Positions 8,132 to 30,408 of a stretch of DNA of 64,000 nt are shown piece after piece (position 1 is the stretch's first letter; each line of letters begins with the position of its first letter). The translations under genes were made by a program, and so were the position numbers. The notes under the pieces were generated by a model. That model was not told the origin of the DNA, did no database searches, and was given only the letters and a program-made list of their open reading frames with translations. Where the stretch lies: positions 1 to 64,000 of the forward strand of contig CAIYVZ010000088.1 in the NCBI GenBank assembly GCA_903929755.1, read 5' to 3'. This DNA comes from an uncultured Acidobacteriia bacterium. Its GTDB lineage: Bacteria > Acidobacteriota > Terriglobia > Bryobacterales > Bryobacteraceae.

Positions 8132-8670
8132 TTATCGCAGGTTCTGACGACCTTTTTCTCCTCGGTGCGCGTGAGCGTGTGGCTCGTACATACAGAACGG
8201 GTCGGAGCCAAGAGGGTTGCCAGTGGCGGCGAAGGCTCGGGCACGGGAGCCGCCGCAGAGGGTCCGGTAGTCACAGACACCGCAGCGATCTTCGAACCGG
8301 GTGGGTTCGTGGAGCTGGCGGAAGAGGGGGGCGTCGCGGCAGATATCGACGATGTTGTCGTTCAGGACGCTGCCGACGGGCAGGGGGAGGAAGCCCGCGG
8401 GGCAGATGTCGCCGGTGTTCGAGATAAACATGATGCCGTGGCCGTCGCGGATGCCGTAGCTGCGGGTTGCGCCGGACTGGCGGATTTGTTCGCCGGTCAT
8501 ACCTTCGGAACGCATGCGTCCGAGAACGACGCGGCGGAAGGAAGGGGCTTCTGTGGTGGCAACGGTGAAGTTGGCCTGGCGGTCGGTCGCGTCGATCCAT
8601 CTCATGAGGGTTCACCCTCTTCGGGGGTGAGAGGCTGCGCAACGAGCGTCGCGCGTCCTTTGGGTTCGAA
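8132..8670 (-). pseudogene. Truncated and frameshifted radical SAM/SPASM gene
   Basis: The minus-strand frame 8132-8605 matches, almost residue for residue, the C-terminal 40% of the intact radical SAM gene at 29320-30408 (for example G-I-M-F-I-S-N-T-G-D-I-C-P-A-G-F and D-R-C-G-V-C-D-Y-R-T-L-C-G-G). Homology continues upstream through Q-P-L-T-P-E-E-G-E, but one base is missing near 8607 relative to the intact copy, creating a stop. It ends near 8670. The radical SAM core with its CxxxCxxC cluster is absent. The C-terminus also runs on for about 12 residues past the intact stop. It is a non-functional fragment. Confidence 0.85.
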
Positions 8671-15088: not shown

Positions 15089-15280
15089 GGTGGCGAAGGA
15101 GGGGAGAGTAGATACGCCCTGAAGTTCTCCCCGCGATCATAATTTTGCGTGGACTTTGAGAGGACTTCGACGATGATGGTCGCGTCTGTGAGAGTGTCGC
15201 GGTCCGCGTCCAGGAAGCGGCCGGGTTCGCAGAAGACTTCGGAGGCGCGTTCGATTTCAAGATATTGCTGAGGGGGCAGG
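15089..15280 (-). pseudogene. Internally deleted Uma2 gene copy
   Basis: Bases 15089-15239 match 7710-7856 of the intact Uma2 gene at very high identity (for example V-E-V-L-S-K-S-T-Q-N-Y-D-R-G-E on the minus strand). The sequence then jumps to a match with about 8046-8082 near the Uma2 N-terminus, so about 190 bases are deleted. One base is also missing near 15108 (GTAGATACG against GTACGATACG). The C-terminal quarter is absent. It is clearly dead. Confidence 0.8.
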
Positions 15281-15299
15281 ACCTGAGTTTATCTAATTT

Positions 15300-15540
15300 G
15301 CATGCGCGGGGGCGTGGGGCTCGTACATGCAGAAGTGGTCGGAGCCGAGAGGGTTGCCGGTGGCGGCGAAGGCCCGGGCGCGGGAGCCTCCGCAGAGGGT
15401 CCGGTAGTCGCAGACGCCGCAGCGATCTTCGAAGTGCGTGGGGTCGTGGACTGCCGGAAGAGGGGGGCGTCGCGGTAGATATCGACGAGGTTGTCGTTGA
15501 GCACGCTGCCGACGGACAGGGGGAGGAAGCCGGCGGGGGC
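15300..15540 (-). pseudogene. Second radical SAM/SPASM gene fragment
   Basis: These 240 bases match the last 75 or so codons of the intact gene at 29320-30408 with only about a dozen differences. A one-base deletion near 15450 shifts the frame: C-G-V-C-D-Y-R-T-L-C-G-G and L-N-D-N-L-V-D-I-Y-R-D-A-P-L-F-R lie in different frames. Homology ends abruptly at about 15537. It sits directly upstream (in its own direction) of the Uma2 remnant, repeating the order seen at 7.5-8.7 kb. Confidence 0.8.
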
Positions 15541-15672
15541 AACCGCTGCGCATTATTGACAGGCTGCGTAACAGTATCGCTACGGTTTGGGGATTGTGAA
15601 GGGGTCACGGGCATTGGTATCATCGCAGCGCGTCAGCGTGTGATGAATAGAGCCAGCGAGGGAAGTTATTCC

Positions 15673-16980
15673 ATGACAGAACAGAAGGCCCGCAAACTCC
15701 AGCATCCCCCGGGATGGCTGGCGTGGGCGATTTGGGGGCTGGCCGCAGCGTTTTATTTAACCGCATTTTATCTGCGCGCCGCGCCGGCGGTGATGACCGC
15801 CGAACTGATGCGGGACTTCCGAATAGGTGCCGGGCAACTGGGGAATCTATCCGCGTTTTACTTCTACTTCTATGTGGCGATGCAGATCCCCATCGGGGTT
15901 CTGACCGACACACTGGGAGCGCGGAAACTGCTGGTGATCGGGTCTCTGACGGCGGCAGCCGGCACCTTCCTGTTTGGCGCTACCGACAACTTTGCTATGG
16001 CCTGCGCCGGGCGCGCGATTGTAGGCGGATCCACCGCTGTCGGATGGCTGGTATTGCTGCGGCTGACAACTCACTGGTTCTCACCAAAGCGCTTCGCGAT
16101 GTTATCCGGGCTGGGGTTGTTTTTCGGAAATATCGGAGCGCTGGTGGCGCAGGTTCCGCTACGGATTCTGGTGGAACATTTCTCGTGGCGCACGGTAGTC
16201 ATCATGTCCGCCGGACTGGTGCTGGCGGTCGGTGCGGCGGCGCTGGCATTCGTCCGGAACGATCCCTCCGAGCGCGGGTATGACAGTTTTGCGCCGAAGG
16301 ATTTGCGGAACATGCCCAAGGCGAACCTGGCGGATATCCTGGTCGGATTCAAAAAGATTGCGGGCACGCGTAATCCCTGGCTGATCCTGTTCGCGCAGGG
16401 CGGCCTGGTGGGGCCCATGATGACGTTCACGGGCTTGTGGGGTCCGCCGTTTCTAAAGGCTCGGTTCGGGCTGGCCCCCACGGAAGCGGCGACGATCTGC
16501 TCAATCATGATTGTGTGCTGGGCTGCGTGTTGCCCTCTGGCGGGCGCGCTCTCCGACAAGATGGGGCTGCGGAAGCCGGTGTATTTAGGAGGGACAATTC
16601 TGACCGGGATTGGGTGGGCCACCATGTTCTATGTGGACGCACTGCCATTAGCAGCATTCACGGTGGTCGCGGCGCTGACGAGTGTGGCAACGGCGTCGGT
16701 GATTGTCGCGTTTCCGTATGCGCGGGAGTCGGCGCCGCTGCGTTACATGGGTACCGTAACGGCGTCAACCAACATGGGGAATATGTTCGGGCCTTCGCTG
16801 TTGCAGCCGGGGATCGGAATGCTGCTGGACCAGCACTGGGCGGGCCAGACGCTGAAAGGCGCGCATGTGTATGGCGTGGAGGCGTACCACGTTGGATTTC
16901 TGCTGATCCTGGCCTGGTCTGTCGCTTCGTGCGTGCTGATCAGTCTGACTAAAGAAACAAATTGCCGCCAGACCGAATAA
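15673..16980 (+). CDS. MFS transporter
   Basis: A 435-residue inner-membrane carrier of the major facilitator superfamily with about 12 hydrophobic segments. The motif after TM2 reads G-V-L-T-D-T-L-G-A-R-K, the MFS motif A (G-x-x-x-D-x-x-G-x-R-K), and its weaker counterpart G-A-L-S-D-K-M-G-L-R-K lies in the second half (about 290). The ATG at 15673 has GAGGGAAG about eight bases upstream. The frame is open back to 15265, but that part overlaps the antisense radical SAM debris and is not protein-like. The next gene starts one base after the stop, so the two are co-translated. The substrate is unknown; the carboxylate/sugar-acid branch is plausible. Confidence 0.85.
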   Translation: MTEQKARKLQHPPGWLAWAIWGLAAAFYLTAFYLRAAPAVMTAELMRDFRIGAGQLGNLSAFYFYFYVAMQIPIGVLTDTLGARKLLVIGSLTAAAGTFLFGATDNFAMACAGRAIVGGSTAVGWLVLLRLTTHWFSPKRFAMLSGLGLFFGNIGALVAQVPLRILVEHFSWRTVVIMSAGLVLAVGAAALAFVRNDPSERGYDSFAPKDLRNMPKANLADILVGFKKIAGTRNPWLILFAQGGLVGPMMTFTGLWGPPFLKARFGLAPTEAATICSIMIVCWAACCPLAGALSDKMGLRKPVYLGGTILTGIGWATMFYVDALPLAAFTVVAALTSVATASVIVAFPYARESAPLRYMGTVTASTNMGNMFGPSLLQPGIGMLLDQHWAGQTLKGAHVYGVEAYHVGFLLILAWSVASCVLISLTKETNCRQTE

Positions 16981-16981
16981 G

Positions 16982-18688
16982 ATGGATCTGGTGAGCGCGG
17001 TCGGGACAGAGAGCATTCAGGCACAACTGAACCGGATCATGAATTCGGCCACGTTTCAGCAGGTGGACAGGCTGAAGCGCTTCCTCACGTTTGTCGTGGA
17101 AGAAACCGCCGCGGGCCGGGGCGGTCAACTCAAAGAGTACGTGATCGGCGTGCAGGTCTTCGACAAGAACGTGTCGTTCGACCCGCGCACGGATCCGATT
17201 GTCCGCGTACAAGCCCGTCGGCTGCGGGTGCGGCTGGCGAAGTATTACAAGGACGAGGGCGGCCACGACACGCTGCTGATTGAGCTGCCGAAGGGCGGCT
17301 ACACGCCGAGTTTCCGCAAGATGGAACCGGCGCCCGTGAAGAGGTCGATTCCCGGGGCGCTGGCGAGCCGGAATACCGTGACGGTGACGCGCTTTGCAGA
17401 CCAGAGTCCGGCGAATGATTTGGGGTATTTCTGCGGAGGCCTGGGCGACGAAATTGTGCATGCGCTGGTGGCGGGGCAGACTTTGCGCGTCTTGTCGCAA
17501 GAGACCGACGCGGCGATGGTGGTGGGCGGGAGTGTCCGGCGAACCGGCAATACGGTTCGGGTGACGGCGCAGATTGTGGACGGGCCGAGTGGCGCGTATT
17601 TGTGGTCTGAGATTTTCGACGGAGAACTGGACGCCGGAATAGACCTGCAGGAGAGGGTGGCTGCCGGGGTTCGGGGCATGCTGCAAACTGCGGCGGGGGA
17701 TGCTCCACGGCGGGGGACGCTGCGTCCGATTGAGAATCTGGCGGCGCGGAATCTGTATCTGCAGGGACGGTATCACCTGAACCAGCGGACCGAAGACGGC
17801 CTGAAGAAGGCGCTCGATTTCTTCGAAAAAGCGCTGGCTGAGGACAGCCAGTATGCGCAGGCCTCGTCTGGCCTGGCGGACGCGTATGGCCTGATGGGGC
17901 ACTACGGGGTAATGGCTCCGGTGGAAGTTTGGACGAAGACGGCCTCGATTGCATCAACTGCGGTCATGCTGGATGAGAATTCGGCCGAGGCGCATACGTC
18001 ACTGGCGCACGTGAAGTGCACGCAGGACTGGGACTGGCAGGGAGCGCAGCGAGAGTACCTTCGGGCGATTGCGCTGGACCCGAAATATCCGACCGCGCAT
18101 CATTGGTACGCGGTATCGTGCCTGGCGCCAATGGGGAGGCTGGATGAGGCGCTGGAAGAGATTTTAATTGCGCAGTCGCTGGACCCGGTGTCGTCGATTA
18201 TTGCCCGCGAAATTGCAGTGATCCATTACTTTCGACGGGATTATGAGGCAGCCCTGGAGCAGATTGACCACACTGTGGAGTTGAATCCCCATTTCTCGCT
18301 GGCGTACTGGACGCTGGGCTTGATTCAGGAGCAGCAGGGCGAGTTTGAGGAGTCGGTGGCGGCATTTGAGAGGGCAATTCAGTTATCGCCACATAATCCC
18401 AGAATGCGGGGGGCGCTGGGCCGAACGCTGGCGCTATCGGGGAAGAAGAAGGCCGCCGGGCGGATTTTGGCGGAGCTGAAGGAACTTGCCGGGAAGAGGT
18501 ATGTTTCGCCGTTTGACATCGCCTCCATGCACTTTGCGATGGGGGAACGGGAAGAGGGGTATGAGTGGCTGGGCCAGGCATTCCGCGACCGCTGCTTTGA
18601 GTTGTTATGCCTGATGGTGGACCCGCGATTTGATTCGTTGCGGGGAGATGAGCGGTTTATGGAGTTGGCGAAACAGTTGGGCTTGTGA
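16982..18688 (+). CDS. TolB-N-like/TPR regulatory protein
   Basis: A 568-residue soluble protein. The N-terminal 115 residues include R-T-D-P-I-V-R-V-Q-A-R-R-L-R-V-R-L and L-P-K-G-G-Y-T-P, the pattern found before TPR domains in many acidobacterial adenylate cyclase- or CadC-like proteins. About residues 130-235 resemble the TolB/FlgO N-terminal fold (V-T-V-T-R-F-A-D-Q-S, then L-S-Q-E-T-D-A and V-G-G-S-V-R-R-T-G-N-T-V-R-V). TPR repeats fill about 245-520. It starts one base after the MFS stop, which suggests control or sensing of that transport step. No cyclase or kinase domain is present. The partner is unknown. Confidence 0.7.
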   Translation: MDLVSAVGTESIQAQLNRIMNSATFQQVDRLKRFLTFVVEETAAGRGGQLKEYVIGVQVFDKNVSFDPRTDPIVRVQARRLRVRLAKYYKDEGGHDTLLIELPKGGYTPSFRKMEPAPVKRSIPGALASRNTVTVTRFADQSPANDLGYFCGGLGDEIVHALVAGQTLRVLSQETDAAMVVGGSVRRTGNTVRVTAQIVDGPSGAYLWSEIFDGELDAGIDLQERVAAGVRGMLQTAAGDAPRRGTLRPIENLAARNLYLQGRYHLNQRTEDGLKKALDFFEKALAEDSQYAQASSGLADAYGLMGHYGVMAPVEVWTKTASIASTAVMLDENSAEAHTSLAHVKCTQDWDWQGAQREYLRAIALDPKYPTAHHWYAVSCLAPMGRLDEALEEILIAQSLDPVSSIIAREIAVIHYFRRDYEAALEQIDHTVELNPHFSLAYWTLGLIQEQQGEFEESVAAFERAIQLSPHNPRMRGALGRTLALSGKKKAAGRILAELKELAGKRYVSPFDIASMHFAMGEREEGYEWLGQAFRDRCFELLCLMVDPRFDSLRGDERFMELAKQLGL

Positions 18689-18756: not shown

Positions 18757-18795
18757 ACTCTAACACCCGACTCTAACACCCGACTCTAACACCCG
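18757..18795. repeat. Three exact 13-bp tandem repeats at the ThDP gene stop
   Basis: ACTCTAACACCCG occurs three times without mismatch at 18757-18769, 18770-18782 and 18783-18795. The last copy contains the stop codon of the ThDP enzyme gene (CTA on the plus strand at 18786-18788). The others repeat that 3' end outside the gene, next to the terminator stem. Confidence 0.9.
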
Positions 18796-20552
18796 TTGCG
18801 GTAGATGTCGTTGATGTTCCAGTGACCCGGAGTCGGCGTGGGGGCGTTTTCCATGGGGACCTGGATTACTGTAGGCAGGTTGGCGGCCAGGGCTTCTACC
18901 AGAGCCGGACCGAGCTGCTCCGGAGATTCGATGGAGACGCCCCTGGCTCCGTAACCTCTGGCTATGGCGGCGAAGTCCACTCGGTAGGGTTGTCCGTCTC
19001 TGTGGAAGACGCAGCCGAAGTCGGTGCCGTAGTGTTGGTTTTCCAGACCGGCGATGGTGCCGAAGGCAGCGTTGTCCATCACGACGAAGATGACGTTCAA
19101 ACCCGCTTCCATCGCTGTCGCGAGGACGGCCGGGTTGCTGCCGAAGCCGCCGTCGCCGATTAAGGCAACACTGGCTCTGTGGGGCTGCGCCATCTTGACT
19201 CCCAGGGCAGCTGACGGGCCGAAGCCCATAGTGCAAAGGCCGCTGGGGGTGACGAAGGTCCCGGGGACCGTGATGGCGAACTGCTGACCGACCCCGTTCT
19301 TATTCCAGCCAACGTCGGTGACGATGAAACCGTCCTCCGGAATCGCCTTGCGAACTTCCGCAAGGATGCGCTCAGGGCGGAGGGGAAACTGGTCGGAGGT
19401 CCACTGGTGGGCCCAGTTTCCGGCGAAGGCTTTTCTGGACGACGCGATCTCTTCCCTGAGAGTTCCGCGGTCGCGGTGTGTCCGATTTCTCGCCGCTTCG
19501 ACGAGAGCCTGGAGCGCTAGTTTTGCATCGGCGATGACGCCGAGTTCAGTGGGCAGATTGCGGCCGATTTCGGCCAGGTCCGCGTCAATGTGGAAGACTC
19601 GCGTGGGTGGTGAGAAGGTGAAACGGGGGTCCCAGGAACTGGAACTGGCTTCGGCCAGGCGCGTGCCGATGGCGAGGATGAGATCCGCGGTGCGGCATTT
19701 TTCGTTGGCGATGGGCGTGCCCCAGAAGCCGGTCATGCCGAGGAGCAGGGGATGCGCTTCGTGCATGGTTCCCTTCCCCATCAGCGAGTGGGCGACGGGA
19801 ATTTCGAGAAGTTCGGCGAGTTCGGCAAGTGCCGTGGTGGCGCGGGCCGAGATGACACCTCCGCCTGCATAGAGAACAGGATTCTTCGCTTCGGCCAGTT
19901 CAGCGACAATGCGATCGGCAGTGGCGGAATCGATGGTGGGGCGCGCTATCTCGGCTGGAATCTGGCTGAAGGCATTCTCGTCGAGGTCGGCCGAGAACAT
20001 ATCCATGGGCACGTCTACGAGGACGGGGCCGGGGCGACCAGATGCGGCGAGGTGGAAGGCGCGTTCCACGATACGGGGGAAGTCTTCCACACGGTCCACA
20101 CGATAGACGCGCTTACAGAAAGGACGGTAAACCTGGTACTGGTCGGCATCCTGGTGGAGATTCATTTCCTGGTGGGGATGGCGGCCGTAGTAGTGGGACG
20201 GAATGTCTCCGGAAATGACGACCATCGGGATGGAGTCGAGAGCGGCGTTGGCCACACCGGTGGCGGCGTTGGTAAGGCCGGGGCCGAGGTGGGTGAGGAG
20301 CACGCCGGTCTTACCGGAGGCGCGCGCGTAGCCGTCGGTGGCGTGAGCGGCAACCTGTTCGTGGCGTGTGCTGATGAAGCGGATCTTGCTCTTCCCGAGC
20401 GCGTCAAGGAACGCGATGTTGGTGTGGCCGCAGAGGCCGAAGATGACCTCGACGCCGAGACGTTCCAAATACTCGGTCAGCAGATAGGCGGCGATTCTCT
20501 TGCCGGGGGCGGGAGCCTTCACAACGGTTTCAGTTTGCGTTTGCGTAGCCAT
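18786..20552 (-). CDS. Thiamine diphosphate-dependent enzyme, acetolactate synthase-like
   Basis: A 588-residue member of the acetolactate synthase/2-oxoacid decarboxylase superfamily. The ThDP-activating glutamate is Glu65 in S-T-R-H-E-Q. The middle domain (about 205-345) looks like the usual FAD/ADP-binding-like fold. The ThDP/Mg motif is I-G-D-G-G-F-G, continuing to V-M-D-N (about 465-495). It is not clearly IlvB (no IlvH small subunit nearby) and differs from sulfoacetaldehyde acetyltransferase Xsc. It is the last gene of the operon, 12 bases after the SauS-like gene. Decarboxylating a 2-oxoacid to the aldehyde used by that dehydrogenase would make sense; this is inference. Confidence 0.8.
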   Translation of the reverse strand: MATQTQTETVVKAPAPGKRIAAYLLTEYLERLGVEVIFGLCGHTNIAFLDALGKSKIRFISTRHEQVAAHATDGYARASGKTGVLLTHLGPGLTNAATGVANAALDSIPMVVISGDIPSHYYGRHPHQEMNLHQDADQYQVYRPFCKRVYRVDRVEDFPRIVERAFHLAASGRPGPVLVDVPMDMFSADLDENAFSQIPAEIARPTIDSATADRIVAELAEAKNPVLYAGGGVISARATTALAELAELLEIPVAHSLMGKGTMHEAHPLLLGMTGFWGTPIANEKCRTADLILAIGTRLAEASSSSWDPRFTFSPPTRVFHIDADLAEIGRNLPTELGVIADAKLALQALVEAARNRTHRDRGTLREEIASSRKAFAGNWAHQWTSDQFPLRPERILAEVRKAIPEDGFIVTDVGWNKNGVGQQFAITVPGTFVTPSGLCTMGFGPSAALGVKMAQPHRASVALIGDGGFGSNPAVLATAMEAGLNVIFVVMDNAAFGTIAGLENQHYGTDFGCVFHRDGQPYRVDFAAIARGYGARGVSIESPEQLGPALVEALAANLPTVIQVPMENAPTPTPGHWNINDIYRNGC

Positions 20553-20564
20553 TTGATTGTTGTC

Positions 20565-21965
20565 CTAAAAGATTTCCGAGTTATAGAATTCGCCGAAGAG
20601 TTCTTCGTCGCTGGGCCTGTCTTCGGGCAGGGGCTTGCTGACCCAGGTAACGTTCATGTAGTGCTTGAGATGAATATTCTCGTTGGTGATGTTGCCGCCC
20701 CAGATGCCACACCCCATTGATGACGTCATGGGCATCCCGTTGGTGAAGTGGCCGGCATTGGCGCGAGACTGCGGCTGGCGAACCATAATGCGGCTGACGG
20801 GAGCCATCAACGCGAGCTGGTTAATGTGGTCGTCGTTGAACGAATAGATGCCGCAGGAGTGGCCCTTGCCGCCGGTTTCGAAGATGCGACGGATCATGTC
20901 CAGACCGTTCGCGAAACCTTCATAACGGAAGATGGAGAGAACGATGCCGAGCTTCTCGGTGGAGAAGAGATGATCCTTGCCGATCTTGTCTTCCTGCACG
21001 AGGAAGAAGGTCTTGCCTTCGGGGAGATTAATGCCGGCCTTGGCTGCGACTACGGGCGCGGGGCGCGCGATGGTGTCGGGCGTGCGATGGCCTTCCGCGT
21101 CCCAGTAAGCGTTGCGGAGGAGGGTCTTTTCGTCGCCGTTCACGAGATAGCCGCCTTCCTTCTGGAGCTGGGCGAGCATGGCGTCATAGATGGTGGAATC
21201 GACCACGATGTTGCCATCGGCGGAGCAACCCGAGCCGTAGTCGTTGGTCTTGCTGATCCGGGTGTTTTGGGCTGCTTCTTCGATGTTGGCGGTCTCATCG
21301 ATGAGCATGGTCGCGTTCCCGGCCCCGACGCCGTATGCGGGCTTGCCGGAGGAGTACGCGGCACGGACCATGGCCTGACCACCGGTGGCATTGGTGAGGT
21401 CGCAGATAGCCATGATTTCCTGCGAGAGCGGAATACTGGGCTTCTGCACGCACTGCAGCAGGTCTTCGGGAGCGCCGCATTTTTTGAGCGCGGCACGCAT
21501 CATGCGGACGACTTCGTTGGTGGTGTTCTTGCTGGCCGGGTGGGGGCAGAAGATGACGGCGTCCTTACATTTCACCGCGTATATAGCAACAGAAGCGGGT
21601 GTGACGTAGGCGCTGGTGACCGGGATAAGAGAGGCGATGACGCCAGCGGGCTTACCGTACTTGACGATGCCCTTTTCCGGGATTTCTTCGATGACACCGA
21701 TGCTCTTCTGGCGAAGTGCGTCGCGCAGGATACCCAGGATTTTGGCGCGGCGGGTGGGTTCCCGGCTGCCCATGCCGCTTTCATCCACGCTCATGTTAGC
21801 GAGGCGAAGAGCCGCGGTTTCGTTACCGGCAGCCCAGGCGACGGCGCGACAGAGATGATCGACCTGTTCCTGCGTGAGGCTGTCGGCGGCCTGCATGGCG
21901 GCGCGAGCCTTCGCGAGGAGGGTGGCGGCTACTTCTTTTTCTTCGAGTGTGATTTCTCTTGCCAT
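20565..21965 (-). CDS. Acylating aldehyde dehydrogenase, SauS-like
   Basis: A 466-residue CoA-acylating aldehyde dehydrogenase of the EutE/SauS group, giving an acyl-CoA from an aldehyde with NAD(P)+. The catalytic cysteine is probably Cys247 in Y-G-S-G-C-S-A-D-G-N; G-S-G-C-S-A-D-G-N is what I recall from sulfoacetaldehyde dehydrogenase SauS, where acetaldehyde enzymes usually have I-C-A-S-E. A nucleotide-binding segment A-Y-G-V-G-A-G-N-A-T lies about 35 residues earlier. It lies between the citryl-CoA lyase-like gene (21 bases) and the ThDP gene (12 bases). Substrate preference (sulfoacetaldehyde or another small aldehyde) needs biochemistry. Confidence 0.75.
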   Translation of the reverse strand: MAREITLEEKEVAATLLAKARAAMQAADSLTQEQVDHLCRAVAWAAGNETAALRLANMSVDESGMGSREPTRRAKILGILRDALRQKSIGVIEEIPEKGIVKYGKPAGVIASLIPVTSAYVTPASVAIYAVKCKDAVIFCPHPASKNTTNEVVRMMRAALKKCGAPEDLLQCVQKPSIPLSQEIMAICDLTNATGGQAMVRAAYSSGKPAYGVGAGNATMLIDETANIEEAAQNTRISKTNDYGSGCSADGNIVVDSTIYDAMLAQLQKEGGYLVNGDEKTLLRNAYWDAEGHRTPDTIARPAPVVAAKAGINLPEGKTFFLVQEDKIGKDHLFSTEKLGIVLSIFRYEGFANGLDMIRRIFETGGKGHSCGIYSFNDDHINQLALMAPVSRIMVRQPQSRANAGHFTNGMPMTSSMGCGIWGGNITNENIHLKHYMNVTWVSKPLPEDRPSDEELFGEFYNSEIF

Positions 21966-21986
21966 TTTGGTTGTCAGGGGAATGCG

Positions 21987-22751
21987 TTAGAGATTGCGAG
22001 GTGGTTCCCCGTCATATTCAACGGGGATGCGAATGCGCATGGGCTTTTCGCGGGTGTATTCTTCGGAGACTTCGGCGGTGAGGCCGGCGACGCGGCTCAC
22101 GATAAACAGGAGCTTACCGGCGGAAGAAGGGAACCCCATGTCGAAGAGGACAGCGGCGAGAGCGCCATCCACGTTGATGGGGAGAGGCTTCACGCGGGCG
22201 GAAACGGCGGCTTCGAGAGCCGTCATGAATTCCGCACCGGCGGTGGGCAGGCCAGCTTCGCGAGCCATGCGGAAGAGCACGTCGACTCGGGGGTCCGTGG
22301 AATGAACGCGGTGACCGAGCCCGGGTAAACGCCTGCCCTGCGCGCGGGCCGCATCGACGGTCCGGGTTGCGGCTTCTTCAAGGGAGATACCTTCGGTGCG
22401 GGCGAGTTCCAGACCTGCGCCGATCATCTCCATACAAAGAGAGCCGGCACCACCGTGCTCGTCGCCGATGGCGAGGACGCCGGCGGCCACGGCGGCGGAG
22501 TAAGACTGGCGGTTGCCGGAGGCGGCCAGGCGGGCGGTGGCGCAGGAAGGTGCCCCCGCACCGTGGTCGGCTCCGGAGATGAGAATCGCGTTCAGCAGCT
22601 TGCTTTCGGCAGGCGCGGGAAGGCGACCGCGATGCAGCAGGAAGATGGTGTCGGTAAAACTGACACGCTCCATCAGCTCGGTGATGTTGTAGCCACGAAT
22701 CCGGATTGAGTTTTCGTGCGAACTAACGATCGCGGTGCGCCAGGGAGTCAT
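21987..22751 (-). CDS. Citryl-CoA lyase/citrate synthase-fold protein
   Basis: A 254-residue protein of the citrate synthase superfamily, much shorter than citrate synthase (about 430) and close in length to proteins annotated citryl-CoA lyase. It keeps the synthase landmarks I-R-G-Y-N-I-T-E-L-M (about 18-27), G-D-E-H-G-G-A-G (about 96-103) and L-P-G-L-G-H-R-V-H (about 142-150), followed by D-P-R. The His of G-H-R-V-H would be catalytic. It could split or form a citryl-CoA-like thioester. It starts nine bases after the TonB receptor 2 stop, so it is second in the operon. The true substrate is unknown. Confidence 0.75.
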   Translation of the reverse strand: MTPWRTAIVSSHENSIRIRGYNITELMERVSFTDTIFLLHRGRLPAPAESKLLNAILISGADHGAGAPSCATARLAASGNRQSYSAAVAAGVLAIGDEHGGAGSLCMEMIGAGLELARTEGISLEEAATRTVDAARAQGRRLPGLGHRVHSTDPRVDVLFRMAREAGLPTAGAEFMTALEAAVSARVKPLPINVDGALAAVLFDMGFPSSAGKLLFIVSRVAGLTAEVSEEYTREKPMRIRIPVEYDGEPPRNL

Positions 22752-22760
22752 AAGTCCAGC

Positions 22761-25700
22761 TTAGAAGGCGTACTTGAGCGCGAACTGCATGACGCGGGCT
22801 GTGGTGTTATTGCCGGGCGCGCTGCTCTGCGCGAGCGGTGCGATGCGACCAAAGCTGGCGTTGTTCATGGCACCCACGGGAGGCCCAAACATAACGCTGT
22901 TCGGCAGATTGAAGGCCTCGGCGCGGAACTGCATGCTGTGGTGTTCGCGGACCTTGAACGTGCGGGAGAGTGAGAGATCCACGTTCATGACCGGAGGTCC
23001 GGCGATGGTAAAGGGCCGGGTAGTGGCGTATACGCCTTTGGGGGCGTTGGCCGGCGCGGTGAAGGCGTTGACGTTGAGGTAGCTGGTGACGCTGCCATCA
23101 CCGTAAACATTCGGCAGAATCTGCTGGGCACGCTGGCTGCCGGCACCCGTGAGGGCCACATCTGTGCCGTAAGTAACGGACGTCAGGTTGCCTGTCGCCA
23201 TACGGATGATGGGCGCGGCCTGCCAGCCATTCGCCAGCATGTTGAGCATCCTGTTATTGAACTTCGGTGATTCGAGAAGACCGGAGATGTTGACCTGGTG
23301 GCGGTGATCGGAGGCGCAGTTGGAGCGGTCGGCCGAGCGGTTGTTCGGATCCACGTAGTTGGGGCCGGTGATTTCCGTGGTGGAAGGGTCAGCCAGGCAG
23401 TGCGACCAGGTCCAGTTGGTGAGGACGCTGAAGTTGTCAGACAGGCGATGCTGAGCCGAGACCAGGAGGCCGTTGTAGCTGGAGGTAGCGCCGCCATCAA
23501 GCCAGGCGATGGTGGAGTAGGCGGGGCCCCAGGCGGGGTTCGCAAGCGTGAGCAGGCGGCGGGCCGCCGTGTTGGTGGCAGAGGTGCTGGAGCAGGGTCC
23601 GGCGGCAGTGAGACCATACTGACCGGCGATGCAGTTGCCCGGGATGTATACCTGCGGGTTCAATTCACGCCCGGACCAGAGGTGCGCGGTGTGGTTGCCG
23701 ATGTAAGAACCGGAGAGGAGCCACTTGCCAACCTGACGCTGCACGGAAAGGTTCCAGGAATTGGCCTGGGGTGACTTCAGGTTCGGGTCAGAGACGGCAT
23801 AGACACCGCCAGCCGGGAAGAAGCCGAAGCTCTTGGATGTCCCGGAGGTGGTGGTGAAGGGATCGCCACCGGCATAACCCTGCCAGGGATTGGAGAGCGG
23901 GAACGGGCCGCCCGCACGGGTAAGGGTTGCGCCCCATGGCGGGTTGTTGGAGACGCGGGTGTAGAAGAACATGTGGGGCGTGTCATAGAGCAGCCCGTAG
24001 GAAGCGCGAATGGAGGTCTTGCCGTCACCGAACGGATCCCAGGAGAGGCCGATGCGGGGCAGGAAATGCATGGCCTTTTTGTTGTACTGCTGGTTGGGCG
24101 GGGCACCGGAGTCGGTACTGAAGAGGAGACCGGGAGGCGGCGTAAGCGCGGGGGAGGAGACGGGCGGCGTACCGAACTTATTGGCGAGGAAGTTATCCAT
24201 GCTGAAGGTTTCGACGTAGTTGTCGGTGTTGCGCTGCGGGAGATAGGGCTCGAAGCGGAGACCGAGGTTGAGGCTGAGGTGACGGGTGACGCGCCAGGCA
24301 TCCTGAACGTAGATACCGTAGTAGTCGGATTTGTCGTTGTCGTAGAAGGGACGGCCCTGGCTGTAGGCGTTGAGCTGCCCGGTGACAAAGTCAGCATAGC
24401 CAAGGCCGGCCACGCCGCCTGCAGTGCTGTACTGCCCGGTGAAGTTGAGGCCTCCGTTGACGTTGCGGGTATTCTGGGCGTGCATGACGGCGCGGATGTA
24501 CTGGGCACCGATCTGGAGCTGATGTTTGCCGCGCAGCCAGGTTATATCTTCCGCTCCGGAGTAGGCGAGGGTATTGAAGTAGCCGGGGTTGCTGGCGCCA
24601 CCCGCCAGAGTGGCGCCGTTGGTGATGGCGAGGTTCATCTGAGCCGGAATGATGGCCGTGACGGGAATCCCGAAATCTTTGGGCGACTTGAAGGTGGGGA
24701 TGAAGCGGGGGTTCAGGCTGCGATTGGCGGTAATGCGCGAACTGAAGAAGAGGTTGGGGCTAAAGGTGTAGTTGTGACCGACAGCGGTGGACTGAATGTT
24801 ATTCGACTGTCCAGTTGTGCTGCCCGTGAACAGGGGGTTCGAGGGATCGAAGAACAGGGGCGTAAAGTTGTTCGACAGGATGTAACGGACGAACATGGTC
24901 TGCTTGTCGCTGATGGTGTAATCGACCTTGGCGGGGACCTGATACTGACGCTGGTTCGCACCGGCTCCGTAGTTGATGAGACCGCAGGCGTTGAGCTGGT
25001 TGGTGGGCATCAACTTCGCAATGCTCAGGGCGATGGGATCCATAAGAGACGGCGCGATCTTGTTGCCGATGAACGGCCCGATGAGCGTGATGGCTTTCGG
25101 CTGGCACTGGGTGGACGCGATGGTGGTGAAGTCGCCGGCGAGCATGGCGGGCGTCATAGAGAAGCCCGTGGAATCGGCCGGGTTGGACCGCTTGATCGTC
25201 GACTGTTCACCGACGAAGAAGAACAGTTTGTTCTTCATGATGGGGCCCCCGAAGGTACCGCCAAACTGGCTCTGCTTGAGGCTGTCGCGAACGAGCGAGG
25301 TGGCTGTACGTCCGTTGAAGTTGTAGTTGCGGATGTACTCGAAGGCATTGCCGTGGAAGCTGTTGGTGCCGGAGCGGGTGGCGACGGTTACGGAGGCGGC
25401 GGCATGCTGGCCGGTCTGAGCACCGACGGCGCTGGTTTCTACTTTGAATTCCTGCAGAGCGTCCGGGAACGGCAGAGGCTGATTGAGGCCGTTGAAGGGC
25501 TCATTGGCGGTGGCGCCATCGAGCGAGAAGGCGATCTGGTTGGCATTGGCGCCAGCCACCGAGATGGTGATGGTGGGGAAGTTCTTGTTTGAGTTGAGAT
25601 CGTTGGCGACCTCGCCCTGCGTGGTGGCGGCGCCGGCGAGGAGAATCAACTGCGTGGGCTCGCGGGAGGCGAGAGGCAGATTGATAACTTCATCGTGGGT

Positions 25701-26105
25701 AATCACCTGGCCGACGCCGCTGCTGCGGGTTTCTACGGCGAGCGCTTCGGCAGCGACCGTTATCTGCTCACTGACGGCGCCGATTTTCAGGACCGGGTTG
25801 ATGGTGGGATTGGTGCTGACTTCCAGCACGATGCCGGGCTGAACGAAGGTGCTGAAACCCTCCTTGGTGACTTCCATACGGTAGGGACCGATGGGCAGGT
25901 TGGGAAGAGTGTAGGTACCGTCGGCGGAGGAGGACACGCTGCGGGTGAGGCCGGTATCGGTCTGGCTGACCTTAATACTGGCGGCCGGAATGACGGCGCC
26001 AGTGGCATCCTGGACGGTGCCGGAAATTTGTGAGGTGGAGGTCTGCGCCCACGTGGGGGCAGACAGAAGCAGTGCAAGTGACGCGATTCGAACGAAGAAT
26101 CTCAT
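22761..26105 (-). CDS. Oar-like TonB-dependent receptor 2, first gene of the SauS operon
   Basis: A 1114-residue outer-membrane receptor. It has a signal peptide (about 1-20), a carboxypeptidase-regulatory-like domain (about 22-105: I-S-G-T-V-Q-D-A-T-G-A-V-I-P), a plug domain with F-S-L-D-G-A-T-A-N-E-P-F-N (about 195-207), and a barrel with the aromatic-ended C-terminus L-K-Y-A-F. The ATG at 26105 has CAGGAG about six bases upstream. Its stop lies nine bases before the citryl-CoA lyase-like gene, so receptor and three enzymes form one transcription unit. This is unusual, since most such receptors stand next to secreted hydrolases, and suggests that the ligand is the substrate or inducer of the pathway. 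Confidence 0.9.
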   Translation of the reverse strand: MRFFVRIASLALLLSAPTWAQTSTSQISGTVQDATGAVIPAASIKVSQTDTGLTRSVSSSADGTYTLPNLPIGPYRMEVTKEGFSTFVQPGIVLEVSTNPTINPVLKIGAVSEQITVAAEALAVETRSSGVGQVITHDEVINLPLASREPTQLILLAGAATTQGEVANDLNSNKNFPTITISVAGANANQIAFSLDGATANEPFNGLNQPLPFPDALQEFKVETSAVGAQTGQHAAASVTVATRSGTNSFHGNAFEYIRNYNFNGRTATSLVRDSLKQSQFGGTFGGPIMKNKLFFFVGEQSTIKRSNPADSTGFSMTPAMLAGDFTTIASTQCQPKAITLIGPFIGNKIAPSLMDPIALSIAKLMPTNQLNACGLINYGAGANQRQYQVPAKVDYTISDKQTMFVRYILSNNFTPLFFDPSNPLFTGSTTGQSNNIQSTAVGHNYTFSPNLFFSSRITANRSLNPRFIPTFKSPKDFGIPVTAIIPAQMNLAITNGATLAGGASNPGYFNTLAYSGAEDITWLRGKHQLQIGAQYIRAVMHAQNTRNVNGGLNFTGQYSTAGGVAGLGYADFVTGQLNAYSQGRPFYDNDKSDYYGIYVQDAWRVTRHLSLNLGLRFEPYLPQRNTDNYVETFSMDNFLANKFGTPPVSSPALTPPPGLLFSTDSGAPPNQQYNKKAMHFLPRIGLSWDPFGDGKTSIRASYGLLYDTPHMFFYTRVSNNPPWGATLTRAGGPFPLSNPWQGYAGGDPFTTTSGTSKSFGFFPAGGVYAVSDPNLKSPQANSWNLSVQRQVGKWLLSGSYIGNHTAHLWSGRELNPQVYIPGNCIAGQYGLTAAGPCSSTSATNTAARRLLTLANPAWGPAYSTIAWLDGGATSSYNGLLVSAQHRLSDNFSVLTNWTWSHCLADPSTTEITGPNYVDPNNRSADRSNCASDHRHQVNISGLLESPKFNNRMLNMLANGWQAAPIIRMATGNLTSVTYGTDVALTGAGSQRAQQILPNVYGDGSVTSYLNVNAFTAPANAPKGVYATTRPFTIAGPPVMNVDLSLSRTFKVREHHSMQFRAEAFNLPNSVMFGPPVGAMNNASFGRIAPLAQSSAPGNNTTARVMQFALKYAF

Positions 26106-26160
26106 GTGAACTCCTGGAAACTAACCTTGGAATACTGGCCCTGGTGCTGGTTAGGTCCAC

Positions 26161-26190
26161 ACTATCAAGGTTTTTGGCGAATTACAGCAA
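26161..26190 (-). promoter_or_regulatory. Candidate promoter of the receptor/enzyme operon
   Basis: Read on the minus strand, TTGCTG (26185-26190) and GATAGT (26161-26166) are 18 bases apart, giving a plausible sigma-70 promoter with a leader of about 48 bases to the ATG at 26105. The rest of the 204-base divergent gap towards the ThuA gene shows no gene. Confidence 0.35.
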
Positions 26191-26309
26191 AGTAACAGTG
26201 TCGATACGTTAACCCCGGGCAGGGGCGTGTAACGGTATTGAACGGTAAAAATCACCGATTTGACGGCGCGGCAGTGATAAGGTGAACATGCGGATTCAGG
26301 AGGTCTCAG

Positions 26310-27245
26310 TTGATCAGTTTGAGTAAGAGAGCGTTGTTGGGAACTGCGGCAGTATTGCTGGCAGGGGTTTGGGCGATGGCGCAGAATCCTCCGGCTGCGG
26401 GTCAGGGACAAGCCGGTCAAGCGCCAGGCGGAGCACCGGGGCGTGGTCCCGGGGGCAGAGGCCGAGGTGGGCGCGGTGGGCCGCGACTGCGGAAGACCGT
26501 ACTGGTTTGGGCCGATACGCGGAACGGGATCGCCCAGCATGATTCCACGTCGCACGCCATGGCGATGATTGAGCGCCTGGGCTATGAGTCGGGAATGTGG
26601 GATACGTTTATCCGGACCGACTCCGACATCATTTCCTATGCGCCGAAGATGACGACGGGGCAGCCGGCGAGTGGCGGACCCAACCTTGGGAACGTGGACG
26701 CGATCTTCTTTATGGGACACCGCGACATTCAGCTAAGCGACCAGCAGAAGGCGGATTTGCTGAAGTTTGTGCATGACGATGGCAAGGGCTTTGTGGCTGC
26801 GCATGTAGCAATGACTTCAATGAACTCGTGGCCGGAATTCGGCGAGATGCTGGGCGGGGTTTACGACGAGCATCCGTGGGGTTCGGCGGCTGGAACTGTG
26901 ATCAATGAAGACCCGACGTTTCCGGCGACAAAGCATTTGCCGCAGACATTCGCCCTGACGGACGAGTTCTACCAGGCGAAGAACTTCTCACGGGAGAAGA
27001 GCCGAGTTCTCTTGCGCCTGGATCTGTCGAAGATGCCTCCGAATGAGGGTAACCGCAGCAAGAATGGCGATTTCCCGCTGGCGTGGGCCAAGATGTACGG
27101 CAAGGGCCGGGTATTTTATGGATCGTTCGCGCATGCGGCGAAGACGTGGGACGATCCGGATATCTATCACATGTATTTTGAAGCGATGCGGTGGGCACTC
27201 GGGATGACCGAGGGTGATGTGACGCCCCGTCCGTACACACCGTAA
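26310..27245 (+). CDS. Secreted ThuA-like (trehalose-utilization domain) protein
   Basis: A 311-residue exported protein started by TTG, supported by a full AGGAGGT six bases upstream (26298-26304). A signal peptide (about 1-25) is followed by a Gly/Arg/Pro-rich stretch (about 28-58, G-R-G-P-G-G-R-G-R-G-G-R). The ThuA/class I glutamine amidotransferase-like fold follows, with V-D-A-I-F-F-M-G-H-R-D (about 128), F-V-A-A-H-V-A-M-T (about 158) and W-G-S-A-A-G-T-V (about 190). ThuA domains are linked to oxidation or binding of sugars such as trehalose. The PQQ-propeller gene starts 26 bases downstream, suggesting a periplasmic sugar-oxidation pair. Confidence 0.75.
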   Translation: MISLSKRALLGTAAVLLAGVWAMAQNPPAAGQGQAGQAPGGAPGRGPGGRGRGGRGGPRLRKTVLVWADTRNGIAQHDSTSHAMAMIERLGYESGMWDTFIRTDSDIISYAPKMTTGQPASGGPNLGNVDAIFFMGHRDIQLSDQQKADLLKFVHDDGKGFVAAHVAMTSMNSWPEFGEMLGGVYDEHPWGSAAGTVINEDPTFPATKHLPQTFALTDEFYQAKNFSREKSRVLLRLDLSKMPPNEGNRSKNGDFPLAWAKMYGKGRVFYGSFAHAAKTWDDPDIYHMYFEAMRWALGMTEGDVTPRPYTP

Positions 27246-27271: not shown

Positions 27272-29218
27272 ATGCGAATCATACTGATGGCGAGCGCCGC
27301 GCTGGCGCTGGCAACGACGACTTGCGCGCAAACGGATTGGCCGACCTATGGCCATGATCTGGCAGGGACCAGATATTCTCCGCTGAAGGAGATCAATGCC
27401 GGGAATGTGACGAAGCTGGAGCGGGCGTGGACTTATCACATGACGGTGGAAGCCGCACCGGCGGTGGTGCCGCCTCCGAATGCGGTGAATGATTCGGCAA
27501 CAGCCGCGCCGCCCGGTGGCGGTAGAGGGCGTGGAGGTCGCGGCGGTCGCGGCGCTTTCGGTGGCGGACGACAGTCGCAGGTTTCGCCTCTGGTGATTGG
27601 CGGCGTGATGTATCTGACGACGGCGTACAACCGGGTGGTGGCACTGGAGCCGGAAACGGCTAAGGAACTCTGGAACTACGAAGTGAAGGATGGAGCTCCG
27701 GCGACGCGGGGTCTGGAATTCTGGGCGGGCGACGGACAGTCCCCCGCGACGATCTTCTTTGGAACCTCGACGGGCAAGCTGATTGCGCTGAATGCAAAGA
27801 CGGGGAAGCTGATCCCGGGCTTTGGTAACGAGGGCATGGTGGATATGAAGCCGGGGGCGCTGAACGGGCTGAAGGATTCCAGCTTCGGGCTGTCGTCACC
27901 TCCGATTGTCTACAAGAACGTGGTGATTACGGGCGCGCATGTGCAGGAGGGCCCGAGTGTGGGGTCGGCCGGCGACACGCGGGCGTGGGACGCGCATACG
28001 GGGAAGCTGCTTTGGCAGTTCCATTCGGTGCCGCGGCCTGGCGAGAAGGGCAGCGAGACGTGGGAGGGCGATGACTGGAAGCAGCGGTCGGGGACCAACG
28101 TTTGGGGCTTCTTCACGGTGGATAAGGAGCGCGGCACTGTCTACATGCCGTTTGGCGAGCCAACGACGGATTACTGGGGCGGCGACCGGAAGGGGAACAA
28201 TCTTTACGGGACGTCTCTGGTGGCGGCCGATGCGCTGACGGGCAAGATGAAGTGGTATTTCCAGGGCGTGCATCATGACACGTGGGATTACGATTTCGCT
28301 GCGCCTCCTGTGCTGTTCGATGTGACGTATAAGGGCAAGAAGATTCCCGCTGTTGCCGAGCTTTCGAAGACCGGTTACCTGTATGTGCTGAACCGAGTGA
28401 CCGGGGCTCCGGTTTATGGCGTGGAAGAGCGCAAGGTTCCCACCGATGATGCGCTGCCGGGGGATGTGGCGTCGCCGACGCAGCCGTTCCCGGTAAAGCC
28501 ACCTTCGCTGGCGCGGAACAGTTTCACGCGGGCGGACATTGCCACGGTGACACCGGAACTACAGAAGTACTGCACGGAGCTGTTTGACAGCATTCCGGGG
28601 GGCATGCATGCGGGCGGGCCGTTCACTCACTACAACACGACACCGAGTGTGATCTTCCCGAGCTCGATTGGTGGCGGGAACTGGAACCCTCCGTCGTTCG
28701 ATCCGACGCTGGGATATCTGTTCGTCAACACGATGGACTTCGGCAGCTTGAACGTGATGGTGAAGAATGAGAACGGCACTTACAGCCGGCAGGGTGTGAA
28801 CGGCGTGAATCGCTTCTGGAATGGGGAAACGAATATGCCCTGTAACCAGCCGCCATGGGGCCGGTTGTTTGCGATCAACGTGAACACGGGCGACATTGCC
28901 TGGCAATCGACGCTGGGGGTGACCGATTCGCTGCCCGCTGACAAGCAGAATACGGGGCGTCCGAATCTGGGCGGGTCTCTGGCGACGGCGGGTGGGCTGG
29001 TGTTCATCGGGGCTACCGACGACAGCCGCTTCCGGGCGTTCGAATCAAAGACGGGCAAGGAAGTGTGGGTGACGAAGATTGATGCGGGGGCGCATTCGGC
29101 TCCGATCACCTTCCAGGGCAAAGACGGGAAGCAGTATATTGTGGTGACCGCTACGGGCGGTGGTTTCCTGGGAGACCGGAGCCGGGCGGACACGATGATT
29201 GCGTTTCGTTTGCCGTAG
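27272..29218 (+). CDS. PQQ-dependent dehydrogenase-like secreted beta-propeller
   Basis: A 648-residue exported quinoprotein-type propeller. The signal peptide ends near A-Q-T (about 20). The fold begins D-W-P-T-Y-G-H-D-L-A-G-T-R-Y-S-P-L, the standard start of glucose/alcohol quinoprotein dehydrogenases, and ends L-G-D-R-S-R-A-D-T-M-I-A-F. PQQ-type blades are visible through W-Q-F-H-S-V-P and Y-F-Q-G-V-H-H-D-T-W-D-Y-D (about 330-342). A Gly/Arg-rich insertion (about 82-98) interrupts the first blade, and the ThuA protein has a similar run. There are no haem CxxCH motifs, so electrons would pass to quinone or a separate cytochrome. The substrate is probably a sugar or polyol. Confidence 0.85.
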   Translation: MRIILMASAALALATTTCAQTDWPTYGHDLAGTRYSPLKEINAGNVTKLERAWTYHMTVEAAPAVVPPPNAVNDSATAAPPGGGRGRGGRGGRGAFGGGRQSQVSPLVIGGVMYLTTAYNRVVALEPETAKELWNYEVKDGAPATRGLEFWAGDGQSPATIFFGTSTGKLIALNAKTGKLIPGFGNEGMVDMKPGALNGLKDSSFGLSSPPIVYKNVVITGAHVQEGPSVGSAGDTRAWDAHTGKLLWQFHSVPRPGEKGSETWEGDDWKQRSGTNVWGFFTVDKERGTVYMPFGEPTTDYWGGDRKGNNLYGTSLVAADALTGKMKWYFQGVHHDTWDYDFAAPPVLFDVTYKGKKIPAVAELSKTGYLYVLNRVTGAPVYGVEERKVPTDDALPGDVASPTQPFPVKPPSLARNSFTRADIATVTPELQKYCTELFDSIPGGMHAGGPFTHYNTTPSVIFPSSIGGGNWNPPSFDPTLGYLFVNTMDFGSLNVMVKNENGTYSRQGVNGVNRFWNGETNMPCNQPPWGRLFAINVNTGDIAWQSTLGVTDSLPADKQNTGRPNLGGSLATAGGLVFIGATDDSRFRAFESKTGKEVWVTKIDAGAHSAPITFQGKDGKQYIVVTATGGGFLGDRSRADTMIAFRLP

Positions 29219-29319: not shown

Positions 29320-30408
29320 TCAGTGGGCGTGAGGCTCGTACATGCAGAAGGGGTCGGAGCCGAGAGGGTTGCCGGTGGCGGCGAAGGCTCGGGCGCGGGA
29401 GCCGCCGCAGAGGGTCCGGTAGTCGCAGACGCCGCAGCGATCTTCGAAGTGGGTGGGGTCGTGGAGCTGGCGGAAGAGGGGGGCGTCGCGGTAGATATCG
29501 ACGAGGTTGTCGTTGAGCACGCTGCCGACGGGCAGGGGGAGGAAGCCGGCGGGGCAGATGTCGCCGGTGTTCGAAATGAACATGATGCCGTGGCCGTCGC
29601 GGATGCCGTAGCTGCGGGTAGCGCCGGACTGGCGGATTTGTTCGCCGGTCATGCCTTCGGAACGCATGCGTTCGAGGACGACGCGGCGGAAGGAGGGGGC
29701 TTCTGTGGTGGCGACGGTGAAGTCCGACTGGCGGCCAATCGAGTCAATCCACTTCATGAGGGTTTCGCCTTCTTCGGGGGTAAGGGGCTGCAGGACTTTG
29801 CCGCGGCCGACGGCGATGAGGAAGAAGAGGCTCCAGCGGGCGATGTGGAAGGGCTTCAGCAATTCGTAGACGGCGGGCAGGCCGGCGGCAGTTTCGGCGG
29901 CGGCAAGAGTGTTGACCTGGACGGGCATTTCCAGTTCCTGAGCCCAGGCGAGAGCTTTCATGGTGCGGTCGAAGGTGCCGGGAACACCACGAATTGAGTC
30001 ATGGTGTTCGGCGGTGGCGCCATCGAGGGAGAGGCCGAGGCCTTCCACGCCGTGTTCCTTGAGACGGACGAGGACTTCGCGGGTGAGGGCGGGGGTGGCG
30101 GCGGGGGTGATGGATGTGCCGATGCCGAGGCGGCGGGCTTCGTCGATGAGCAAGTAGAGGTCTTCGCGGGCGAGAGGGTCGCCGCCGGTGAGGATGAGTT
30201 GGGGGTAGGGGCGACCGAAGCCGGGGATCTGGCGGAGAAAGTCCAGGCTCTGCTGGTGATTGAGTTCGGAGGGGTGGGGCATGGAGATAGCCTCCGCACG
30301 GCAGTGACGACAGGCAAGGGCACAGGCCTGGGTCATCTCCCAGTAAATATTCATGGGGGACTGGGAAAAATCGCGGGCAGCCGCGTGGGAATGGGCTATT
30401 GCACTCAT
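29320..30408 (-). CDS. Radical SAM/SPASM protein (full-length copy)
   Basis: A 362-residue enzyme. The radical SAM 4Fe-4S motif is C-A-L-A-C-R-H-C (about 29-36), after W-E-M-T-Q-A. L-T-G-G-D-P-L (about 74-80) follows as the SAM-contacting GGxP-like loop. The SPASM-type cysteines at the C-terminus are in I-C-P-A-G-F, F-E-D-R-C-G-V-C-D-Y-R-T-L-C-G-G, and P-F-C-M-Y (auxiliary cluster). The order resembles TIGR04053-type and haem-pathway (AhbD/NirJ-like) SPASM proteins. No precursor peptide gene is obvious next to it. Two truncated relatives lie at 8.1-8.7 and 15.3-15.5 kb. It is divergent from the GNAT gene. Confidence 0.85.
   Translation of the reverse strand: MSAIAHSHAAARDFSQSPMNIYWEMTQACALACRHCRAEAISMPHPSELNHQQSLDFLRQIPGFGRPYPQLILTGGDPLAREDLYLLIDEARRLGIGTSITPAATPALTREVLVRLKEHGVEGLGLSLDGATAEHHDSIRGVPGTFDRTMKALAWAQELEMPVQVNTLAAAETAAGLPAVYELLKPFHIARWSLFFLIAVGRGKVLQPLTPEEGETLMKWIDSIGRQSDFTVATTEAPSFRRVVLERMRSEGMTGEQIRQSGATRSYGIRDGHGIMFISNTGDICPAGFLPLPVGSVLNDNLVDIYRDAPLFRQLHDPTHFEDRCGVCDYRTLCGGSRARAFAATGNPLGSDPFCMYEPHAH

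Follow-up and report, generated by a model that had tools for sequence, protein, structure and literature searches.

Plants contain quinate, shikimate and their esters, e.g., chlorogenic acid, in abundance. In the bacterial route described so far, quinate and shikimate are aromatized to protocatechuate, after which oxygen is required; quinate-fermenting anaerobes have, to our knowledge, been described without the genes responsible. The families of citryl-CoA lyase and 3-hydroxy-3-methylglutaryl-CoA (HMG-CoA) lyase both split 3-hydroxyacyl-CoAs, releasing acetyl-CoA. Here we analyze a 64,000-nucleotide stretch of DNA from an uncultured Acidobacteriia bacterium (the window; contig CAIYVZ010000088.1, genome of 6.86 Mb with Acidobacteriia/Bryobacterales metagenome-assembled genomes as nearest named relatives), which carries an operon for a TonB-dependent receptor (TBDR), a citryl-CoA-lyase-like protein (CCL), an acylating aldehyde dehydrogenase (ALDH) and a thiamine diphosphate (ThDP) enzyme. 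We lean somewhat towards the view that this operon is the lower part of a non-aromatizing catabolism of quinate, shikimate and probably their esters. A broader proposal, which we hold a little less readily, is that a single oxygen-independent route for these compounds extends across phyla, combining ThDP-dependent hydrolysis of a 1,2-dione derived from dehydroquinate, a catabolic homocitryl-CoA and two unrelated lyase families that are interchangeable in splitting it.

The four-gene operon is real. Its minus-strand open reading frames (ORFs) follow one another with gaps of 9, 21 and 12 bp, a tight order that an earlier note on this DNA had described and that was recovered when the gaps were recomputed; inspection of the window sequence gave no convincing internal promoter or terminator. 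The enzyme classes that the earlier note had named from the letters alone agree with the assignments by family hidden Markov models (HMMs). An ALDH-alignment scan of named genomes gave 220 relatives, and the best 80 loci were kept (61–89% identity); their ORFs were called mechanically and grouped by mutual similarity, and representatives were named by HMM. Many of these loci come from metagenome-assembled genomes, with uncertain taxonomy. Annotated plasmid relatives are less than 44% identical and form a separate branch.

The earlier note had staked its proposal on the gene order recurring elsewhere, and it does: four close relatives (L042–L045) have all four genes in the order TBDR-CCL-ALDH-ThDP, and many more loci, including more distant Acidobacteria and Opitutae, have CCL-ALDH-ThDP with no TBDR joined to it, so that the adjacency is not due to chance. 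The same catalytic trio is found in other gene orders in Chloroflexi, Alphaproteobacteria (Pelagibacterium) and Acidimicrobiia, and thus recurs across several phyla. Most of the 80 loci have the ThDP gene, at a median gap of 23 bp from the ALDH gene, and the CCL-like gene, where present, lies 21 bp from the latter.

The cassette is associated with shikimate and quinate genes, and this association is conserved in several phyla. A dehydroquinate dehydratase (DHQase) of type I or II or a shikimate dehydrogenase lies within 10 kb of the ALDH gene, by direct tblastn, at 34 of the 80 loci, compared with none of 40 control stretches (0.67 Mb in total) all taken from the window's own phylum. In the ALDH tree, the loci with such a gene belong to Thermodesulfobacteriota, Bacillota, Pseudomonadota, Chloroflexota, Actinomycetota and Acidobacteriota. 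The HMM-named neighbors comprise both types of DHQase, shikimate dehydrogenase and a QuiC-like 3-dehydroshikimate dehydratase, together with an HMG-CoA-lyase-like (HMGL-like) protein, a xylose-isomerase-like TIM barrel, a cupin and a carboxylesterase. Four Chloroflexi loci have orthologues of CCL, ALDH (66–67% identical) and ThDP enzyme (66–73%) with a type II DHQase adjacent. The window itself has no linked DHQase or shikimate dehydrogenase, and in its own lineage the link to quinate is less direct. Two loci tie the association to the window: L051, of the window's clade, where a type II DHQase is divergent from an ALDH gene whose product is 76% identical to the window's, and L118 (Steroidobacter), where a pyrroloquinoline quinone (PQQ) dehydrogenase and a carboxylesterase are joined to shikimate dehydrogenase, type II DHQase, ALDH, ThDP and HMGL-like genes. 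The carboxylesterase and the PQQ dehydrogenase of L118 are neighbor types also found at Acidobacteria loci.

The lyase indicates what kind of thioester the cassette would handle. The CCL protein matches Citrate_synt (PF00285) at 134 bits and 'citryl-CoA lyase' (NF004869) at 283.2 bits, above the cut-off of 212; its catalytic His99, His147 and Asp195 are invariant across 17 sequences in an alignment of relatives. This short protein is distinct from the housekeeping enzyme, a full-length citrate synthase encoded elsewhere in the genome (contig C147). Across the 80 loci a CCL-like gene is present at 33 and an HMGL-like gene at 25, but never both (Fisher p = 5e-7 on the clustered calls, which overstates independence because the loci are related), and by parsimony on the ALDH tree the exchange needs at least four switches. 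The HMGL-like protein of related loci passes the HMG-CoA lyase model NF004283 (290.8 versus 246 bits). Since both families release acetyl-CoA from 3-hydroxyacyl-CoAs, the shared step would be a retro-Claisen cleavage. C1 of quinate, as of 3-dehydroquinate, carries a hydroxyl and a carboxyl group and is flanked by two CH2 groups; because ring opening beside the ketone followed by acylation gives exactly a 3-carboxy-3-hydroxyacyl-CoA, we propose homocitryl-CoA as the substrate and predict that the CCL protein is a homocitryl-CoA lyase.

The route would then run as follows. Quinate would be oxidized to 3-dehydroquinate, and shikimate would enter via dehydroshikimate, with DHQase running in the hydration direction. 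Because 3-dehydroquinate must become a 1,2-dione, its C3 hydroxyl has to be lost, which would give 1-hydroxy-4,5-dioxocyclohexane-1-carboxylate. The ThDP enzyme, acting like IolD or cyclohexane-1,2-dione hydrolase (CDH), would cut between C4 and C5 to form homocitrate semialdehyde, which the ALDH, proposed to be a CoA-acylating homocitrate-semialdehyde dehydrogenase, would convert to homocitryl-CoA, and the CCL-like enzyme, or the HMGL-like enzyme in other lineages, would split the latter into acetyl-CoA and 2-oxoglutarate. With the ring opened before aromatization, neither a dioxygenase nor oxygen would be needed; the carriers of the cassette include the anaerobes Desulfofustis, Synergistales and Clostridia. 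In this scheme we infer all substrates and intermediates, the directions of the steps, the dehydratase and the validity of the assignment for the window's operon. The scheme amounts to opening the ring of hydroaromatic acids by hydrolysis, much as in inositol breakdown, with a CoA lyase as the final enzyme, and it is apparently undescribed: in the open literature (subscription journals and preprints being outside the scope) we found no pathway that joins quinate to homocitryl-CoA, citryl-CoA lyase or ThDP-dependent ring opening.

The ThDP protein has three TPP_enzyme domains and stays under every equivalog cut-off listed, reaching 423.6 bits against acetolactate synthase (TIGR00118, cut-off 538); membership in IolD was rejected (TIGR04377, 258.8 bits versus a cut-off of 715). 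It was aligned with IolD sequences that pass the IolD cut-off (L124–L126), with Escherichia coli IlvI and Gcl, and with the N-terminus of CDH, whose sequence was confirmed against PDB 2pgn. A Gly-His pair in the PYR domain is invariant in all 34 aligned orthologues (FGLCGHTN in the window), and the window's His43 aligns with the histidine of IolD and with His28 of CDH, where IlvI has Gly and Gcl has Ala. The second histidine of CDH, His31, is not kept, the window having Ile46, and is also missing from IolD; a visually plausible pairing of CDH His76 with the window's His88 was unsupported by the alignment. From this one position and the gene context we infer that the enzyme may work like the ring hydrolases IolD and CDH without belonging to their families, and propose that it is a hydroaromatic 1,2-dione ring hydrolase. 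The decarboxylation of a 2-oxoacid that the earlier note had assigned to it is not favored, given the ring-hydrolase motif and the same cassette in anaerobes beside dehydroquinate genes.

The predicted end product is also what the cell appears equipped to use in Desulfosediminicola flagellatus (L119, complete genome). Here KorABC and SucCD (L119:15124-19787) come after the ThDP gene, on its strand, and before a TRAP transporter. The alpha subunit of the oxidoreductase exceeds its cut-off (529 versus 411), as do both succinyl-CoA synthetase subunits; the beta and gamma subunits are nearest to 2-oxoglutarate/2-oxoacid ferredoxin oxidoreductase models, under cut-off. KorABC and SucCD together are what a cell needs for the use of 2-oxoglutarate. 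A set of Desulfofustis genes (C52, C47 and one of 385 aa) was rejected as a further 2-oxoacid oxidoreductase, the first and last reading as Gfo/Idh/MocA-type, so that the arrangement was seen at L119 only.

For the loss of the C3 hydroxyl the candidate is the TIM-barrel protein, which is present at 16 of 24 HMGL-type loci and whose nearest solved relatives are IolI and Lmo2234, with QuiC1 and AsbF as weaker matches. Over the 80 loci, ThuA (19 loci), the TIM barrel (20) and the cupin (8) never occur two at one locus, so that the ThuA-family protein divergent from the operon may be a substitute in the window's lineage; we treat this as a lead only. Upstream, the candidate for the oxidation of quinate is a PQQ-type dehydrogenase, a type found at 22 of the 80 loci. 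Searches of the window's genome found neither a protocatechuate 3,4-dioxygenase (PF00775) nor a type II DHQase, and we tentatively count both absences for a non-aromatizing route; a LigB-type gene is present elsewhere in the genome. A contig (C173) with a weak TIM-barrel match (22.8 bits) was rejected as carrying QuiC, its neighbors reading as sugar biosynthesis and respiratory-complex genes.

Several observations weigh against this reading. The controls represent a single phylum; QuiC-type genes at 10 loci mean that aromatization to protocatechuate is in some cases also encoded nearby; the ThDP enzyme is overall more similar to acetolactate synthase and glyoxylate carboligase (32% identity) than to IolD (27–28%); and KorABC-SucCD occurs at one locus. 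In the window's own lineage, a query search of the genome found no TIM-barrel candidate, the role of ThuA is conjecture based on where it does and does not occur, and the best NCBIfam model of the PQQ protein, TIGR03074 (glucose/quinate/shikimate), is matched at 469 bits, under the cut-off of 832. Most Acidobacteria loci lack aro-type genes and have PQQ, ThuA and TBDR neighbors, which could mean that another cyclic polyol is degraded.

The last observation is the core of the alternative that survives best, although we judge it unlikely: in the window's Acidobacteria the substrate would be a different oxidized cyclitol or keto-sugar, e.g., an inositol or quinate analogue, which the PQQ enzyme and ThuA would produce, and quinate would be the substrate in other phyla only. 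That the acidobacterial loci show PQQ, ThuA, TBDR and major facilitator superfamily (MFS) genes in place of aro-type genes, and that the window's genome lacks both TIM barrel and type II DHQase, fits this. However, the window's ALDH and ThDP enzyme are 66–73% identical to the Chloroflexi orthologues encoded next to DHQase, a DHQase is also present at L051, within the window's clade, L118 combines PQQ dehydrogenase and esterase with DHQase and shikimate dehydrogenase, and the lyase still requires a tertiary 3-hydroxyacyl-CoA.

Extradiol cleavage of protocatechuate or gallate is a more doubtful source of the substrate. The ThDP enzyme would here decarboxylate 4-oxalocitramalate to citrate semialdehyde, which the ALDH would convert to citryl-CoA and the lyase to acetyl-CoA and oxaloacetate, a chemistry that fits citryl-CoA lyase exactly. 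The QuiC-like genes at 10 loci can be read the same way, and the window's genome has, at G000:C11 (~23 kb; L136:5264-8054), an RraA/LigK-like aldolase, a LigB-type dioxygenase and a DUF1932 oxidoreductase in a row, a probable extradiol protocatechuate/gallate cluster. But neither a ring dioxygenase nor a Lig hydratase/hydrolase cluster recurs among the 80 loci, the anaerobes named above hold the cassette, the ThDP motif is of the ring-hydrolase type, and KorABC-SucCD in L119 indicates 2-oxoglutarate and not oxaloacetate.

Equally improbable, in our estimate, is a version of the route without dehydration, in which retro-acyloin cleavage of 3-dehydroquinate, or its oxidation to the 5-hydroxylated dione, would lead to acetyl-CoA and 4-hydroxy-2-oxoglutarate or its semialdehyde. 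Zn-type and Gfo/Idh/MocA dehydrogenases do adjoin several loci, and IolI, the nearest solved relative of the TIM barrel, is an isomerase; yet L119 carries genes for processing 2-oxoglutarate itself, and no hydroxy-oxoglutarate aldolase was seen among the recurrent neighbors.

The original sulfonate proposal, in which a 2-oxoacid or sulfonate taken up through the receptor is decarboxylated by the ThDP enzyme to give an aldehyde, from which a SauS-like ALDH forms (sulfo)acetyl-CoA, can be dismissed as very improbable: SauS (NF047625) is indeed the best model for the ALDH, and the active-site motif GSGCSADGN was confirmed, but the score of 456.2 bits is far under the curated cut-off of 600 (as in L121 and L119, with 478 and 451 bits), the ThDP enzyme exceeds no sulfopyruvate decarboxylase or Xsc cut-off among the matches listed, and the recurrent neighbors at the 80 loci are dehydroquinate dehydratases and shikimate dehydrogenases, with no recurrent sulfonate gene family among them. 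What stands of that proposal is a conserved operon with the logic of aldehyde to acyl-CoA to lyase; the sulfonate substrate is unsupported, and the decarboxylation is disfavored.

Two further observations concern the sampled loci. A second form of the cassette in Acidobacteria (L073, L074, L079, L084, L103 and L105), with ALDH ∼64–69% but ThDP enzyme only 43–45% identical, carries a CaiB/BaiF-type CoA-transferase (C12, named by eye) and, in L103 and L105, also a CCL-like gene; it is probably a sister pathway for another substrate. Separately, shikimate kinase/dehydroquinate synthase-like genes (C22, named by eye) lie near L104, L101, L096, L116 and others.

Features of the operon and its surroundings, in window coordinates.
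Feature	Position	Strand	Remarks
IclR-family regulator	13849-14745	-	TIGR02431 143 bits, under cut-off of 285; nearest PcaR/PcaU/PobR; candidate regulator
MFS transporter	15265-16980	+	PF07690 154 bits; ORF overextended at 5' end; candidate importer
ThDP enzyme ORF	18786-20552	-	588 aa
Acylating aldehyde dehydrogenase (ALDH) ORF	20565-21965	-	466 aa
Citryl-CoA-lyase-like (CCL) ORF	21987-22751	-	254 aa
Outer-membrane protein (OMP) receptor ORF	22761-26105	-	1114 aa; first gene of the operon
Divergent intergenic region	26106-26309		Presumed promoter region for both units, from gene layout
Secreted ThuA-family protein	26310-27245	+	PF06283 122 bits; divergent from operon; tentative dehydratase/isomerase candidate
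PQQ-type quinoprotein dehydrogenase	27272-29218	+	PF01011 624 bits; candidate periplasmic quinate dehydrogenase

The receptor is Oar/SusC-like, with an OMP_b-brl_4 barrel (594 bits) and a CarboxypepD_reg domain (71 bits), and probably takes up the substrate or a plant ester; its orthologues, 78–80% identical and in the same position, are found in L042–L045 only. Relatives of the MFS transporter (cluster C11) directly follow the ThDP gene in L042, L043 and L045. No sigma-70 match was found in the intergenic region between the two divergent units. A tetratricopeptide repeat (TPR) protein at 16982-18688 is convergent with the operon; its relatives (C8) recur close to the cassette, at 19 of the clustered loci. 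The window also contains dispersed repeats of 89–97% identity at 8166-8638, 15303-15538 and 29323-29791, as well as 7709-7855 with 15092-15237; the copy at 29.3 kb overlaps a minus-strand radical SAM gene (29320-30408) at its 3' end, and the other copies thus look like gene fragments.

If the proposed route is correct, the cassette would supply genes for anaerobic quinate fermentation, and substrates could be given to three gene families that in hundreds of genomes currently go under the names acetolactate synthase, sulfoacetaldehyde dehydrogenase and citryl-CoA lyase. It could also be tested directly whether homocitryl-CoA has a catabolic use, and biochemical confirmation would make this a new pathway.

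Among known systems, QuiA/QuiB/QuiC catabolism resembles the proposed route in its upper part, with genes for quinate/shikimate oxidation and dehydroquinate dehydratase, but passes through 3-dehydroshikimate and protocatechuate, whereas here the ring would open before aromatization. The lower part is closest in logic to myo-inositol catabolism (IolG, IolE/IolI, IolD and IolA), with which it would share a cyclohexane polyol ketone, a TIM-barrel dehydratase/isomerase, hydrolytic ThDP-dependent opening to an aldehyde acid, a CoA-acylating ALDH and the G-H motif. It differs in a ThDP enzyme only distantly related to IolD and far under its cut-off, in the shikimate/quinate neighbors, and in that the inositol pathway ends in an aldolase and the proposed one in a retro-Claisen CoA lyase. 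CDH of Azoarcus likewise cleaves a 1,2-dione ring with ThDP and shares the His28 position, but its His31 is replaced by Ile in the window protein, to which it is a 182-bit relative and no close homologue. Sulfoacetaldehyde dehydrogenase SauS belongs to the same branch of acylating ALDHs and has the same active-site motif; the window's ALDH falls under the family cut-off, and sulfonate genes are absent nearby. Citryl-CoA lyase (PDB 6hxp; NF004869) and the CCL protein have in common the short citrate-synthase fold, the His/His/Asp residues and a score above the family cut-off, but the operon has no visible citryl-CoA synthetase partner and its context points to homocitryl-CoA. Finally, the HMGL-like protein of related loci scores above the HMG-CoA lyase cut-off (NF004283), whereas its gene replaces the CCL-like gene beside quinate genes, with no leucine degradation context seen.

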